Of a stretch of 64,000 bases of DNA, positions 20,676 to 44,222 are shown one piece after another. The position numbers and the translations under genes were made by a program. Source of the stretch: Marinoscillum furvescens DSM 4134 (GTDB lineage: Bacteria; Bacteroidota; Bacteroidia; Cytophagales; Cyclobacteriaceae); NCBI RefSeq assembly GCF_003386095.1, contig NZ_QREG01000004.1:62001-126000 (forward strand), in the 5' to 3' direction. The notes beneath the pieces were generated by a model, which saw only the letters and a program-made list of their open reading frames with translations, did no database searches and was not told where the DNA came from. Numbering within the stretch: the stretch's first letter is position 1; each line of letters starts with the position of its first letter.

Positions 20676-21941
20676 TCAGATGATATAACTGAACAAATCT
20701 GGCTTTTCATTGAGGTATTCGCCTAGAAAATTACGCTCTTTCATTCTGCGAAGGAGCGGTTCAAAGTCTTCCTGGTTTTTGAGTTCTATACCTACTACCG
20801 CAGGACCTTTTTCACGCGAAGTTTTCTTGGTATACTCAAAGTGGATGATGTCGTCATCGGGTCCGAGTACCTCAGCTACAAATTCTTTAAGTGCACCGGC
20901 CCGCTGCGGAAAGCGCACAATGAAAAAGTGCATGAGCTTTTGGTAAAGCAATGAACGCTCGCGAATTTCTTCGGTGCGTGTGATGTCGTTGTTGCTACCC
21001 GAAAGCAAGCACACTACGTTTTTACCTTTGATTTCCTCTTTGTAGTGCTCCAGTACAGCGACTGACAGTGCTCCTGCAGGCTCTAATACTATACCACTTT
21101 CATTGTACATTTTGATCAGTGCAGTGCAGAGCTCTCCTTCATCTACCAGCTCTATCTCCTGCATGTTTTCCTTACACAGCGGGTAGGTGAGATCACCCAC
21201 ACGCTTTACGGCAGCACCATCTACAAACTTGTCAATTTTGTCTAGTGACACCACTTTGCCTTTTTGGAAGCTGTCATACATGGCCGGCGCTCCTGCTGGC
21301 TCCACACCGATGATCTTGGTGTTGGGGCTGAGGAGCTTCATCACGCTGGATACACCCGAGGAAAGTCCGCCACCACCTACTGGTAGAAACAGGTAGTCGA
21401 TCCCGAAATCGGCATCTTTGAAAAGCTCAAGTCCTACTGTGGCCTGTCCTTCGATGACTTTTGGGTCATCAAACGGATGCACAAAGGTGCTGTTGTTTTC
21501 AGCGCAGTAGGCTTTGGCGTAGTTGTAGGCGTCATCAAAGGTGTCACCTTTGAGTACTACTTCTACATACTCTTTGCCAAACATTTTGACTTGCTGTACC
21601 TTCTGCTTGGGAGTAGGTGCAGGCATGAAAATCACTCCTTTTACTTTGAGTTTATTGCAAGAAAGTGCTACACCTTGCGAGTGATTCCCGGCACTAGCAC
21701 AGACCACACCATTTTTCAGCTCTTCTTCTGAGAGTGAAGTGATTTTGTTGTAAGCTCCACGAATTTTGTACGACCGCACTATTTGAGTGTCCTCACGCTT
21801 GAGGTATACTTCGGCACCGTATCGCTCGCTGAGGTTAAAGCTATACTGTAGCGGTGTCTGGTAGATCACCTCCTTCAGCTTGTTGTGGGCCTTTTTTACT
21901 TCTTCTATTTCCGGTCTGTACGCTATCTCTGTGGTCTTCAT
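20676..21941 (-). CDS. ilvA: Threonine deaminase (threonine dehydratase)
   Basis: PLP enzyme that makes 2-oxobutyrate from threonine, the entry step to isoleucine. The PLP lysine is Lys59 in RSYKIRGAYNK, and the PLP-phosphate glycine loop is PVGGGGLSSG. The C-terminal part (about residues 330-421) is a single short ACT-like regulatory unit, as in the 400-residue biosynthetic forms, so isoleucine feedback is likely. It is the last gene of the ilv cluster on this strand, 69 bases after ilvN, with a small hairpin between. Confidence 0.96.
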   Translation of the reverse strand: MKTTEIAYRPEIEEVKKAHNKLKEVIYQTPLQYSFNLSERYGAEVYLKREDTQIVRSYKIRGAYNKITSLSEEELKNGVVCASAGNHSQGVALSCNKLKVKGVIFMPAPTPKQKVQQVKMFGKEYVEVVLKGDTFDDAYNYAKAYCAENNSTFVHPFDDPKVIEGQATVGLELFKDADFGIDYLFLPVGGGGLSSGVSSVMKLLSPNTKIIGVEPAGAPAMYDSFQKGKVVSLDKIDKFVDGAAVKRVGDLTYPLCKENMQEIELVDEGELCTALIKMYNESGIVLEPAGALSVAVLEHYKEEIKGKNVVCLLSGSNNDITRTEEIRERSLLYQKLMHFFIVRFPQRAGALKEFVAEVLGPDDDIIHFEYTKKTSREKGPAVVGIELKNQEDFEPLLRRMKERNFLGEYLNEKPDLFSYII

Positions 21942-22010: not shown

Positions 22011-22607
22011 TCAGAAGTCTTTGATACTTAAATAGTTTGACGGAGCTTCTTCCAGTTGCTTGATATAAGCCTCTGTTTTACGCTTTGATTTGGAAATGGC
22101 CACACGTCCGGATCTTACAAACTCTAACAGCCCATAAGGCTCCAGTTTTTTATAGAGTTCGTGTGTTTCTGACTTATGACCTGTTTTCTCAATAATGATA
22201 TGGTCCTGCTCGATTACCAGGATTCGCGCACCATTGTTTCTTACCAGGTCTTCTGTGTCATTGCCGTTCAGAAAGGCCTGCGTAGGCACTTTGTAGAGGG
22301 CAATCTCCTGATAGTAAACCTCATCTTCTTCGTATACGAATGCTCCCAGCACATCTATGAGCTTCCTGATTTGCTTTACCACTTTTTCGATTTTTTCACG
22401 AGTGGTGGTCAAGACTATAGTAAATCTGGAAACGCCATCTACCTCGGTGGTAGAGACGTTTAAGCTCGTAATGTTCATCTTTCTTCTGGTGAAGATGATG
22501 GTGATGTGATTGAGCAAGCCGGCTTTGTCTTCCGTAAGTACGGAAAGTGTAAATTCTTTTTCCACGTTGTCCGAATGATCTTCGCTATATATGTTGTTCG
22601 TAGACAT
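22011..22607 (-). CDS. ilvN: Acetolactate synthase small (regulatory) subunit
   Basis: Regulatory ACT-domain partner of IlvB. The ACT domain at about residues 17-90 reads FTLSVLTEDKAGLLNHITIIF, followed by the C-terminal ilvH-like half. The 198 residues are a little longer than the short ilvN forms. It lies 19 bases after ilvB and gives valine-type feedback control in this family. Confidence 0.95.
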   Translation of the reverse strand: MSTNNIYSEDHSDNVEKEFTLSVLTEDKAGLLNHITIIFTRRKMNITSLNVSTTEVDGVSRFTIVLTTTREKIEKVVKQIRKLIDVLGAFVYEEDEVYYQEIALYKVPTQAFLNGNDTEDLVRNNGARILVIEQDHIIIEKTGHKSETHELYKKLEPYGLLEFVRSGRVAISKSKRKTEAYIKQLEEAPSNYLSIKDF

Positions 22608-22626: not shown

Positions 22627-24378
22627 TTACTCCAAACGGATGTCTGATACAGAAGCTCCAGATGGTACCATCGGGAATACATTCTCTTCTTTTTCTACTA
22701 CCACTTCTAGAAGTGAAGGGCCTTCGTCGCTGAGCCACTGGTCTATGGCTGCATCGATGTTTGCTCTTTCCACCACTTTTTGTGTTTTGATCCCGTAGCC
22801 TTCAGCGATCTTCTGGAAGTCAGGATTGGTAAGTTCCGTAAATGAGTAGCGCTTATCCATAAACAGCTGCTGCCACTGACGTACCATGCCCAGGAAATTG
22901 TTGTTGAGGATCAGGATCTTTACACCAATATTGCTTTGGAAGATGGTGCCAAGCTCCTGAATGGTCATCTGGAAGCCACCATCACCGATTACGGCGATCA
23001 CTGTACGATCCTCACGGCCCATTTTCGCACCCATAGCTGCCGGGAGGGCAAAGCCCATGGTACCCAGACCACCAGAGGTTACGTTGGAGTCTGTATCCGA
23101 AAATTCGTAATAGCGAGAGGCCACCATTTGGTGCTGTCCTACATCAGTAACCAGCACGGCTTTTCCTTCGGTTTTGTCCGAAATCATGCGGATAACTTCC
23201 GCCATCAGGAGTGGTCCTTCGGTAGGAAACTTCTCCTTTGCCACTACTTTGTCATACTCCTGCTTTTCACAAGCTTTAAACTCTGCGATCCACTCGTCGT
23301 GCGATTGCTGGTCTACCTGCTTATACAGCGACTGTAGCGCTTGCTTCGCATCGGCATTGATGGCTACAGCTGTTTTTACGTTTTTATCGATCTCAGCCGG
23401 GTCTATCTCTATGTGGATGACCTTAGCTTGTTTGGCATAAGTATTTAAGTCGCCTGTTACCCGGTCATCAAAGCGCATACCTACCGCGATGAGTACATCG
23501 CATTCATTGGTTTTCACGTTGGGGCCATAGTTGCCATGCATACCCAAATAGCCCACGTAAAGCGGATGGCTGGTAGGCACTGCAGAGAGCCCCATCAGCG
23601 TAGAAGCCATTGGGATACCCGCTTTTTCGGCAAGAGCAATCAATTCCTTTTGAGCACCGGATAGCAATACGCCATGTCCTACTAAAAGGAAAGGTTTTTT
23701 AGCTTCATTGATGAGTTTTGCAGCAGCTTCCACTTCTTTTTCTTCTAGTGAAGGGTAAGGATGGTAGCTTCTGATTTTGGTACACTTTTTATAAGTGAAT
23801 TTCATCTTCTCAAACTGAGCGTCCTTGGTGATGTCAATCAAGACAGGACCCGGACGGCCCGTTTTTGCGATGTAGAAAGCACGTGCAATGGCATCAGGGA
23901 TTTCTTCAGCACGAGTTACCTGATAGTTCCATTTGGTAACGGGCATAGAGATGCCTACCACGTCAGTTTCCTGAAAAGCATCTGTGCCTAGCAGGTGCGA
24001 AGGCACCTGTCCGGTAATCGCCACCATAGGGGTGGAGTCTATCTGTGCATCGGCTATGCCGGTAATCAGGTTAGTGGCACCGGGCCCGGATGTGGCAAAG
24101 CAGACCCCTGTACGACCCGTGACTCGCGCATATCCTTGAGCTGCGTGTGCAGCACCCTGCTCATGGCGTGTGAGGATGTGGTTGAGTCGATCGGTATAGC
24201 GGTACAACTCATCATAGATCGGCATAATGGCTCCTCCAGGGTAGCCAAAGATGACGTCTACACCTTCCTCTATCAGACACAACAATACCGCCTCAGCACC
24301 CGATACCTCGATCGTTGCTTTTTTGGGCTTCTTCGCTACCTCCAGTGATGGTGTATTCATGCTTGATTGTTTATTCAT
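22627..24378 (-). CDS. ilvB: Acetolactate synthase large (catalytic) subunit
   Basis: ThDP enzyme that makes acetolactate and acetohydroxybutyrate. Catalytic Glu73 lies in [10 protein letters not shown]; the ThDP-Mg motif begins at [14 protein letters not shown] and includes the [12 protein letters not shown] stretch. The 583 residues are full length. The start overlaps the ilvD stop by eight bases (24371-24378), so the two are translationally coupled. Confidence 0.97.
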
Positions 24379-26047
24379 CGGTTACACAGCCAAGTGAAGC
24401 CGATTTTACTGCTTTAACGTATTTTCTTAATATGCCTTTTGGCGCTTTTGATGCTGGTTGTTTCCAGTTTTTGCGACGCTCTTCCATTTCTTCGTCGCTG
24501 ATTTTTACTTCCAGCTTATTGTTTACCGCATCTATGCGGATGATGTCTCCATTTTGGATGAGTCCTATTGGTCCTCCGTCCTGAGCTTCCGGTGTGATGT
24601 GCCCTACTACAAATCCGTGTGATCCTCCAGAGAATCTACCATCAGTAATCAGTGCCACGTCTTTACCTAATCCAGCACCCATTACAGCTCCTGTAGGCTT
24701 GAGCATCTCCGGCATACCCGGACCACCTTTCGGGCCAGAGTATCTGATCACGATCACTTCTCCCTTTTGCACTTCGTTTTGGATACCTTTTATAGCTGCA
24801 AACTCGTCATCGTAGCAACGTGCAGGGCCTTCAAATAGCTCTCCCTCTTTACCGGTGATTTTGGCTACAGCTCCTTCAGGTGCCAGGTTACCGTAGAGGA
24901 TCTGTAAGTGGCCTTGTGATTTGATTGGTTTGTCAAAGCTGTACATCAGTCCTTTGTCATCCTTCAAATCAGGTATTTCGGCGAGGTTTTCAGCGAGTGT
25001 TTTTCCTGTTACAGTCATACAGTCGCCGTGCAGGTATCCTTCTTTGAGCATGATCTTGAGCACACCTGGCACACCGCCAATGTTGTGCAGGTCTTCCATC
25101 AGGAATCTGCCACTTGGCTTGAGGTCTGCGATAAACGGTGTCTTGTCGCTGATGCGCTGGAAATCGTCCAGTGTGATGTCTACATCTACCGCACGAGCCA
25201 TGGCTATGAGGTGCAAGACCGCATTGGTAGATCCTCCCAGTACCATGATCGTGCTGATGGCATTTTCGAATGCCTTTTTGGTCATGATGTCTCTTGGGAG
25301 AATGTTTTTCTCCATGAGGTTTCTCACGGCTAACCCTACTTTGCGTGTTTCGGATTGTTTGTTTTCGCTCTCAGCAGGATTTGAAGAACTAAAAGGCAAG
25401 CTCATACCCATGGCTTCAATAGCTGATGCCATGGTGTTGGCGGTGTACATTCCACCACATGCGCCGGGTCCTGGTATGGAATTTTTGATGATTCCCTGGT
25501 AGTCTTCATCGGAGATGTTGCCTCCCATTTTGGCTCCATAAGCTTCGAACGCCGATACGATGTTGAGGTCTTCGCCTTTCCATTTTCCGGGTTTCACGGT
25601 GCCGCCATATACCATGAGGCCAGGTCTGTTTAGTCTGCCTAGTGCCATGATAGCAGCAGGCATGTTTTTGTCGCAGCCTACTACGGGTACCACAGCATCA
25701 TAAAACTGAGCCTGAACTACGGTTTCTATAGAGTCAGCAATGATGTCTCTCGATATCAGGGAGTATTTCATACCCGTGGTACCATTGGAGATGCCGTCAC
25801 TTACACCTATGGTGTGAAAGATCAACCCGACAAGGTCTGCTTCTTTTACTCCTTTCTTTACTTGATGAGCGAGGATGTTGAGGTGCATGTTACAGGGATT
25901 GCCTTCAAATCCTGTAGATACGATGCCCACCTGGGCCTTCTTCATTTCCTCTTCTGTGAGGCCAGTAGCATAAAGCTGTGCCTGTGAAGCAGGCTGTGAA
26001 GGGTCCTGCGTGATGGTCTTGCTGTACTTGTTCAGTTCTTGTGCCAT
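24371..26047 (-). CDS. ilvD: Dihydroxy-acid dehydratase
   Basis: Iron-sulfur dehydratase that forms the 2-oxo acid precursors of valine and isoleucine. Cluster cysteines are Cys52 (NPCNMH), Cys125 (GCDKNMPA) and Cys197 ([12 protein letters not shown]). Length 558 is standard. It starts five bases after ilvE and overlaps ilvB. Confidence 0.97.
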
Positions 26048-26052
26048 TAATT

Positions 26053-26943
26053 TTATACGATGGTCAGTCCTTGATATTCGTCAAACATTACTTTTTGCTG
26101 GTAGACCATGTGGATGTTGTATCCTACAGAGTCTTCCCATTTCTTTTTGAATTTTTCACCATTTACTGAGCTGATATGGGTGATTTCCGTGGCTGTACCA
26201 CAGAAAAATGCATGATCTGCTCCATACAGTTCTTCTGGTGTGATGTCTTTTTCGGTGACTTTCACTTTGAGTTCTTTGCAGATGTCCATGACCGTGCTGC
26301 GTGTGATGCCCGGTAGGATGTTGCCTTCTTTTGGAGTGAAAAGCTCACCGTCTTTTTCATAGAATATGTTGCTGCCGGGGCCCTCAGAGATATGTCCCTG
26401 GTGGTCGAGCAGGATGGCTTCATCGAAGCCTAGTTTTTTTGCCTCCGCTGATGCCAGGGTGTTGGCGGAGTAGTTGCCTACTACTTTGGCATCCACGGGA
26501 GTGGACTTGGGGCTTGGCTTTAGGTATGAAGAGATCATACAGTTGAGCGGTTCAAAACCCGGGTATTTGGCCCACTTCCAGGCAGTCATAAAAACGTGTG
26601 TCTCCTTAGCAGGGGCCAGTATCATGTTCGGACCAGCAAATACAAGGGGGCGGATGTATGCGTTGGTCAGGTTGTTGCGATCGATCAGCTCATAGGCGAT
26701 TTTAATGAGTTCTTCTACGGTATAGGGGACTTTAAGAAAAACCTTTTCTGCCGAGCTGTGCAGGCGCTTAAAGTGCTCAAATGGCTTAAAGATATTGAAG
26801 CCATTGCCGCTGTTGTAAGAGCGGAGGCCATCAAATACTCCAGTGCCATAATGGAGCGTCTGGTCGAAGAGACTGGCCTTGGCATCTTTGGCCTTGATCC
26901 ACTCACCGTCCAGGAATACCTCGGTTCGATCGTCGTAATACAT
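26053..26943 (-). CDS. ilvE: Branched-chain amino acid aminotransferase
   Basis: Fold-type IV PLP aminotransferase that completes valine, leucine and isoleucine. The PLP lysine is Lys153 in [11 protein letters not shown], and the family block [13 protein letters not shown] is intact. At 296 residues it is full length. It is the first structural gene of the ilv operon and begins 20 bases after the attenuator terminator. Confidence 0.97.
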
Positions 26944-26962: not shown

Positions 26963-26996
26963 AAAAAAAAGCGCCATCCCTCAGGAATGGCGCTTT
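26963..26996 (-). terminator. ilv attenuator terminator
   Basis: On the minus strand the stem is GCGCCATTCC (26993-26984) with GGGATGGCGC (26980-26971), ten pairs including one G-U, a three-base loop TGA, then eight Ts. It stops 20 bases before ilvE. Its 5' arm contains GCCATTCC, which is exactly complementary to GGAATGGC inside the leader peptide frame, so an alternative antiterminator fold is possible. Confidence 0.85.
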
Positions 26997-27017
26997 ATGT
27001 TTATTTTTCATTTTCAG

Positions 27018-27104
27018 CTAAACATAGCCATTCCCCTTCTTGGTCAATCGAATGACCAGAATAATAATTGGTGTAATGACAATATTTGAGATGAATGTTT
27101 TCAT
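27018..27104 (-). CDS. ilv operon leader peptide, 28 residues
   Basis: An ATG at 27104 opens a 28-codon frame whose residues 5-21 read ISNIVITPIIILVIRLT; it ends TKKGNGYV and TAG. Seven Ile, three Val and two Leu make 12 of 28 residues branched-chain; three more are Thr. Three consecutive Ile codons are followed by Leu-Val-Ile. The last codons (AAG GGG AAT GGC) form the antiterminator arm. A ribosome that finishes translation would cover that arm and permit termination; a ribosome stalled at the Ile codons would leave it free. This is the classic attenuation logic, inferred from sequence. Confidence 0.85.
   Translation of the reverse strand: MKTFISNIVITPIIILVIRLTKKGNGYV
27027..27036 (-). promoter_or_regulatory. 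ilv antiterminator arm inside the leader peptide frame
   Basis: GGGGAATGGC on the minus strand. Its GGAATGGC pairs over eight bases with GCCATTCC in the terminator 5' arm. Just upstream, TGGTCA/TGACCA (27041-27058) makes a six-pair hairpin over the CTGGTC-ATT codons, a possible pause hairpin. Confidence 0.7.
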
Positions 27105-27113
27105 AACGCTTTT

Positions 27114-27142
27114 CAAAGCTAATGTATAAGGATAAAAATCAA
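27114..27142 (-). promoter_or_regulatory. Promoter of the ilv operon
   Basis: TTG at 27142-27140, an 18-base spacer, and an exact TAnnTTTG element TAGCTTTG at 27121-27114. The predicted transcript starts only a few bases before the leader peptide ATG, so the leader would be nearly leaderless. The stretch from 27143 to 27320 holds no gene that I can support. Confidence 0.65.
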
Positions 27143-27320: not shown

Positions 27321-27352
27321 AAAAAGCCGAACCACAAATGATTCGGCTTTTG
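27321..27352 (-). terminator. sucC: Terminator of sucC
   Basis: Arms AAAGCCGAA (27323-27331) and TTCGGCTTT (27342-27350) with a 10-base loop; the minus strand runs into eight Ts. It lies about 25 bases after the sucC stop. Confidence 0.85.
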
Positions 27353-44150: not shown

Positions 44151-44222
44151 GGTCCCTTCGTCTAGGGGTTAGGACGCCAGGTTTTCATCCTGGAAACAGG
44201 GGTTCGATTCCCCTAGGGACTG
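44151..44222 (+). tRNA. tRNA-Glu (anticodon UUC)
   Basis: A full cloverleaf: acceptor GGTCCCT with AGGGACT, anticodon stem CCAGG/CCTGG around loop TTTTCAT (anticodon TTC), and T-arm with GGTTCGATTCCCC. No encoded CCA. Its 3' half overlaps the end of the recombinase gene on the other strand and marks the left attachment site of the prophage. Confidence 0.95.
44185..44222. other. Probable left attachment site (attL) within tRNA-Glu
   Basis: The overlap of tRNA-Glu and the recombinase coding end. The prophage genes begin directly here, so the crossover core should lie in the 3' half of the tRNA. The right copy must be outside the window. Confidence 0.55.

Follow-up and report, generated by a model that had tools for sequence, protein, structure and literature searches.

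A predicted leader-peptide attenuator ahead of the ilv operon of Marinoscillum furvescens, with leaders of similar architecture across the Cytophagales

The window, i.e. the whole stretch of DNA analysed here, comprises 64,000 nucleotides of contig NZ_QREG01000004.1 of Marinoscillum furvescens DSM 4134. On its minus strand lie the genes ilvE-ilvD-ilvB-ilvN-ilvA, whose pathway products are the amino acids in which a short leader ORF upstream of them is rich. All five genes scored above the cut-off of the NCBIfam models given below, and the features are listed in the direction of transcription:

27322..27351, minus strand: terminator-like hairpin just after the upstream gene sucC, separate from the leader terminator
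27114..27142, minus strand: predicted Bacteroidota-type promoter, with the -7 element TAGCTTTG (TAnnTTTG) at 27121-27114 and TTG at 27142-27140
27018..27104, minus strand: leader ORF of 28 codons, MKTFISNIVITPIIILVIRLTKKGNGYV followed by a stop codon; frame kept in L002-L005 and G345
27070..27087, minus strand: segment 1 (AAATATTGTCATTACACC), a possible protector by pairing with segment 2; predicted in six of six close sequences
27060..27068, minus strand: three consecutive ATT codons (Ile 13-15), likely control codons by inferred role
27019..27034, minus strand: antiterminator arm (segment 2), GGAATGGCTATGTTTA, covering the leader from codon 24 on and reaching into the stop codon
26984..27003, minus strand: segment 3, antiterminator partner (TAAACATA ... 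GCCATTCC), common with the terminator 5' arm
26963..26996, minus strand: intrinsic terminator, with a 13-bp stem (26996-26968), a 3-nt loop and eight T's (26970-26963)
26053..26943, minus strand: ilvE, branched-chain aminotransferase, first structural gene (TIGR01122, NF005146)
24371..26047, minus strand: ilvD, dihydroxy-acid dehydratase (TIGR00110)
22627..24378, minus strand: ilvB, acetolactate synthase large subunit (TIGR00118)
22011..22607, minus strand: ilvN, acetolactate synthase small subunit (TIGR00119)
20676..21941, minus strand: ilvA, threonine ammonia-lyase (TIGR02079)

After ilvA come thrA (aspartokinase/homoserine dehydrogenase), thrB and thrC, at 20675-15324 of the window on the same minus strand. 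A second attenuator serving thrA was considered and rejected, as the finder detected neither a terminator nor a Thr/Ile leader in 20760-20500, a region that includes the 148-nt gap after ilvA.

The leader contains seven Ile, two Leu and three Val. An earlier note made from the letters alone had described a 28-codon frame with 12 branched-chain residues and three Ile codons in a row, together with a terminator with eight T's shortly before ilvE, and both descriptions hold on the minus strand, the distance from the last T to the ilvE ATG (26943) being 19 nt. The stop codon of the leader is 21 nt from the terminator. The predicted fold of 27110-26960 was better than 200 of 200 shuffles (z -4.5), and of the 16 terminator-like hairpins located in the window by the terminator finder (9 on the plus and 7 on the minus strand) only this one had an ORF with a run of branched-chain amino acids (BCAA) ending within 60 nt upstream. 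The consensus promoter also claimed in the note exists as a promoter element, though of another kind: a scan for E. coli-type promoters on the minus strand between 26600 and 27400 gave no match, so that this type was rejected, and in its place stands TAnnTTTG, which has been given as the Bacteroidota promoter consensus (PMC7366714). In the window the -7 element is separated from the leader ATG by 9 nt, and in the window and five relatives the motif is found 8-11 nt ahead of it, the ATG probably lying about 5 nt after the transcription start in this genus.

A terminator in front of a biosynthetic operon is typical of riboswitches and T-boxes too, and one of these could control the hairpin with the ORF being incidental. 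The Rfam scan of the 64-kb window identified no riboswitch, T-box or named leader, a tRNA elsewhere (44151-44222) being the only element to reach the gathering score, and the leader ORF takes up most of the space between the promoter element and the terminator, so that we give this explanation next to no credence.

Close to the end of the leader the octamer GGAATGGC (27034-27027) has its exact complement, GCCATTCC (26991-26984), in the 5' arm of the terminator. The exact 8-base complementarity noted before is therefore real but stops short, since a second block, TATGTTTA (27026-27019), pairs with TAAACATA (27003-26996), and the whole antiterminator reaches 16 bp with a 4-nt bulge, up to the stop codon. 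Likewise, the antiterminator arm had been placed within the codons next to the stop, which is correct from codon 24 onward, but it also runs into the stop codon itself. The predicted energies were -16.5 kcal/mol for the antiterminator and -19.8 for the terminator hairpin. Compared with shuffles, the complementarity of this leader end alone gave a p of 0.02, which is modest for the window by itself, so the weight of this feature comes from the relatives. The last codon of the BCAA run is 18 nt from segment 2, which ends in the stop codon; the control codons, likely Ile 13-15, are thus placed so that a stalled ribosome would free the antiterminator arm and a finished one would cover it, an argument based on the generally known size of the ribosome footprint.

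The same type of leader was found in five relatives, namely four named ones (L002-L005), three of them labelled Marinoscillum, and one genome of the same genus (G345); Marinoscillum belongs to the Cytophagales according to the NCBI taxonomy. The frame, the terminator and TAnnTTTG were kept in all five, with a peptide core close to NIVITPIIILV. Conservation in relatives of the leader frame and of the 8-base complementarity had been proposed as the point on which the idea could fail; it did not fail there, as, besides the frame kept in five, the 8-base core is exact in three (L002, L003 and G345), holds at seven of eight positions in L004 and is shifted in L005. In the second half, the window, L002 and G345 have TATGTTTA/TAAACATA, TGTATTTA/TAAATACA and TGTGTTTA/TAAACACA, respectively, i.e. 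the pairing was kept with changes on both sides; these second 8 bp were only partly kept in L003, L004 and L005. Covariation of the antiterminator within the six closest sequences did not exceed that of shuffles, because the arms hardly vary. Three further genomes that are about as close (G403, G365 and G396, with ilvD 80-84% identical) have other leader sequences with the same architecture, and one more (G378, ilvD 80% identical) gave no leader match.

The upstream DNA of ilvD and ilvE loci was then read for leaders over the order and the family. Of 148 genomes sampled from the order, 91 had an ilvD match and, under a strict cut-off, 35 an ilvE match; in the family sample ilvD was matched in 63 of 69. 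The order rows left out were G092 (about 320 nt upstream), G120 and a second place in G096, and the family rows left out were G369, which begins within the gene, and G366, which lacks DNA upstream of it; L006, a fifth named locus only 28% identical, and G012, with ilvE and no ilvD match, were left out as well. The resulting 150 genomes or records are the sum of 89, 61 and four named loci, minus four genomes present in both samples. Candidates were chosen blind to complementarity, allowing 0-160 nt between stop codon and terminator with a slight penalty for distance. A BCAA-run ORF followed by a terminator was detected before ilvE or ilvD in 86 of the 150 (48 of 61 in the family sample), and the same detector gave three in the reverse complements and 0.0 in dinucleotide shuffles (mean of five). 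The leader peptides of L005 and G397 are identical, and each of the two is counted among the 86. The stop codon was 17-45 nt from the terminator in every one of them. The 64 genomes or records without a match reflect in part the limits of the detector, and 86 is probably an undercount, leaders being visible in L019, L024, L025, L027 and L030, genomes among these misses. One locus upstream of ilvE (L036, in G055) carries two tandem terminator-like hairpins between a Leu-rich leader and the gene.

These figures bear on the simplest explanation of the hairpin, that it is the ordinary terminator of sucC, with the short ORF and the complementarity there by chance. The gene sucC is indeed upstream on the same strand, and such hairpins end many genes. 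However, sucC already has its own terminator-like hairpin at 27351-27322 and can end without the one in the leader, and the recurrence in 86 of 150 far exceeds both controls. Furthermore, leader and terminator stay together irrespective of which ilv gene leads the operon: some genomes have them directly before ilvD, others about 1 kb ahead of it, at the place of ilvE. An ordinary sucC terminator is hardly believable on these grounds.

The end of the leader was complementary to the terminator arm at p<0.05 in 72 of the 86 leaders (4.3 expected; shuffles of the leader end) and at p<0.01 in 47, and it was not significant in 14. The complementary leaders include 65 distinct paired stretches, and the arms of other genomes matched a leader end as well in a median fraction of 0.047. 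The best complementary run overlaps the stop codon in 40 of the 72. An SD-like sequence was detected ahead of only four of the 86, and TAnnTTTG was found within 60 nt of the leader start in 21 of 86 vs. 3 of 86 in a control stretch. The attenuator proposed in the note thus gains support from the relatives and from a wider order that keeps the architecture with other, matching sequences. What is conserved across family and order is the richness in BCAA and not the peptide, and this argues against arrest by the nascent peptide, in which NIVITPIIILV itself would stall the ribosome in reaction to a small molecule rather than for want of charged tRNA. The near identity of the peptide core in the six related sequences speaks for such an arrest, which we nevertheless regard as very unlikely.

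An alignment of 15 family leaders with a shared arm type was used to follow both folds. The antiterminator pairs hold in 94.0% of cells vs. 31-49% when slid. Seven cells carry changes on both sides, a number that none of 500 shuffles equalled; nor did any of the 500 attain the covariation score. Two other measures on the same 15 leaders gave the antiterminator no excess: 232 of 500 shuffles had at least as many pairs with a two-sided change, and 246 of 500 at least as many pair types. For the terminator, 95.2% of cells are paired, a value reached by 45 of 500 shuffles, and six cells carry changes on both sides, reached by 12 of 500. At one position a C-to-T change in segment 3 is accompanied by G-to-A in segments 2 and 4 in four of the 15 sequences, which is expected if one segment must pair with two partners, although these four sequences may represent one event. 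The parts, their spacing and their conservation are direct observations, as is the covariation in the related set, and the comparison backs an antiterminator predicted to exclude the terminator. When the RNA left free by a stalled ribosome was folded at equilibrium, the terminator was obtained for the window and four of its five close relatives, and L005 was the exception, giving the antiterminator; the fold of L004 was based on an earlier run, IVIV. Since equilibrium favours the terminator in five of six, the switch must be kinetic, with the order of synthesis deciding, as it does in known attenuators.

Whether a protector hairpin also takes part was judged from segment 1 (AAATATTGTCATTACACC), just upstream of the Ile run. 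In a classical four-segment attenuator it would pair with segment 2 when the ribosome is absent or released, and a ribosome stalled on Ile 13-15 would mask it; this would be a fuller form of the three-segment attenuator rather than its opposite. The 1:2 fold is present in the consensus fold of the six close sequences, and segment 2 is paired upstream in the predicted fold of each leader alone. Among the cells of its 12 main pairs, 88.9% are paired vs. 33-54% when slid, and in the inner hairpin two pairs changed on both sides, each in one sequence. On the other hand, none of the 12 main pairs changed on both sides in the six close sequences, and segment 1 is made of codons that are nearly invariant anyway. 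A short duplex test of the antiterminator arm with the upstream RNA gave p 0.27 for the window, and over the family it reached p<0.05 in 6 of 72 leaders vs. 3.6 expected, so the protector hairpin was rejected as a family rule. The statement that there is no separate protector hairpin is then appropriate as such a rule and less so for the window and its five relatives, in which the long 1:2 fold is predicted; for them we treat the four-segment form as a real possibility, if the less probable one.

Returning to the three-segment form, the sequence comparison makes it very probable that the predicted element serves the ilvE-ilvD-ilvB-ilvN-ilvA operon as a ribosome-mediated transcription attenuator. 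We infer the start site, the translation of and stalling on the leader, the amino acid sensed and the read-through as follows. RNA polymerase would start a few bases ahead of the leader ATG, and a ribosome would load on the leader without a Shine-Dalgarno site. With ample charged tRNA-Ile (probably also Leu and Val) the ribosome would proceed to the stop codon and cover segment 2, the terminator hairpin would form and transcription would end before ilvE. With charged tRNA-Ile scarce the ribosome would stall at Ile 13-15, leaving segment 2 (GGAATGGCTATGTTTA) free to pair with segment 3 as it emerges, and the polymerase would read through.

Leaders of this kind are also found at other amino-acid operons. 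Thirteen of 15 family genomes, the one of the window included, have a leader with a run of Trp followed by a terminator before trpE, with 0 in the reverse complements and 0.0 in the shuffles; three weak second trpE matches (L185-L187) were left out of this count. The leader in the own genome of the window is the following:

L174:1320-1438: Trp leader MKTRNTYYWWHMVNNKL, followed by a stop codon, and terminator before trpE

Here GTGAACGGT, at the stop codon, can pair with GCTGTTCGC. The Trp antiterminators are shorter, and the complementarity reached p<0.05 in 3 of 13, the value for the genome of the window being p 0.32. Near the stop codon, 8 of the 13 listed Trp rows share a pairing between GAAC(A/G)G and CTGTTC. 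Leaders with His runs and a terminator precede hisG at 4 of 14 loci (L159, L161, L166 and L167), with HHHH or HHHHH in three of them and HHHIHH in L161, and all four have leader-end complementarity at p<0.05. At hisG of the window's own genome (L163) no His leader was found. We are inclined to believe that leader-peptide attenuation is common and old in the Cytophagales for ilv, and partly for trp and his, in a lean form with no SD, no conserved protector and an antiterminator arm over or beside the stop codon.

Outside the order 31 genomes had an ilvD match and 27 were examined, four without a locus being left out. One of them (G159) was clear (p 0.005) and another (G166) borderline (p 0.055); G210, G245, G225 and G317 look similar without the complementarity, G186 was weak, and no leader was found in 16 of those examined. 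With only G159 clear among the 27, an attenuator common to the whole class was rejected. In one family of the class (L127, L128, L129, L130 and L131) a conserved hydrophobic ORF of 40-48 aa with a terminator lies upstream of ilvD. These five have no leader-end complementarity and look like something else, a small membrane protein or a different switch.

The leaders suggest that ilv, trp and some his operons are controlled by amino acids in many genomes, and they point to small ORFs that are easily missed. If the switch works as drawn, these Bacteroidota would have to load ribosomes early and hold them in step with RNA polymerase. Attenuation requires transcription and translation in step, so that widespread leaders would be an endogenous reporter of their coupling in Bacteroidota, a phylum described as having no classical Shine-Dalgarno sites and an unusual primary sigma factor (PMC7366714). 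With them one could also study ribosome loading on transcripts whose 5' leader is almost absent.

Leader-peptide attenuation of ilv operons has long been established in Proteobacteria and Actinobacteria, including the ilv operons of E. coli, and Lopatovskaya et al. (2010) is, by its title, said to be a broad attenuator survey. The mechanism is classical, but its leaders recur here throughout a group of bacteria for which there is hardly any record of it. A statement from 2010 has leader-peptide systems then known in Proteobacteria and Actinobacteria only (PMC2965389), and in the passages concerned of a study of Bacteroidota his genes, attenuation comes up for enterobacteria alone (PMC8305728). 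Leader peptides of amino-acid operons were predicted by comparison in Actinobacteria (PMC1262725); these attenuators are likewise outside Proteobacteria, in another phylum. In Flavobacterium psychrophilum leader peptide attenuation has been inferred from structured 5' transcripts of amino-acid operons (PMC9723704). Those candidates share the phylum and the kind of operon with ours but come from another order, and the passage that presents them contains no anatomy or covariation. The remark in the note, whose writer knew no well-described leader-peptide attenuator in Bacteroidota, must then be qualified, such attenuators having been suggested in print for a flavobacterium, though in a passage without anatomy.

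In Corynebacterium the ilvB-II motif is described as a leader-peptide attenuator of ilv genes (PMC10272879). The leaders described here resemble it and those of the E. coli ilv operons in their BCAA-rich ORF, their intrinsic terminator, the antiterminator that excludes it and the position before ilv genes. They differ in having no Rfam match (the comparison being made via Rfam), in the SD-like sequence present in so few of them, in the ATG placed 9 nt after the -7 element, in the antiterminator arm that continues into the stop codon and in a protector hairpin that is not family-wide. PMC10272879 cites a paper whose title tells of a leader in Corynebacterium that is produced with no ribosome binding site, and a missing SD is therefore not unique to the leaders of the Cytophagales.
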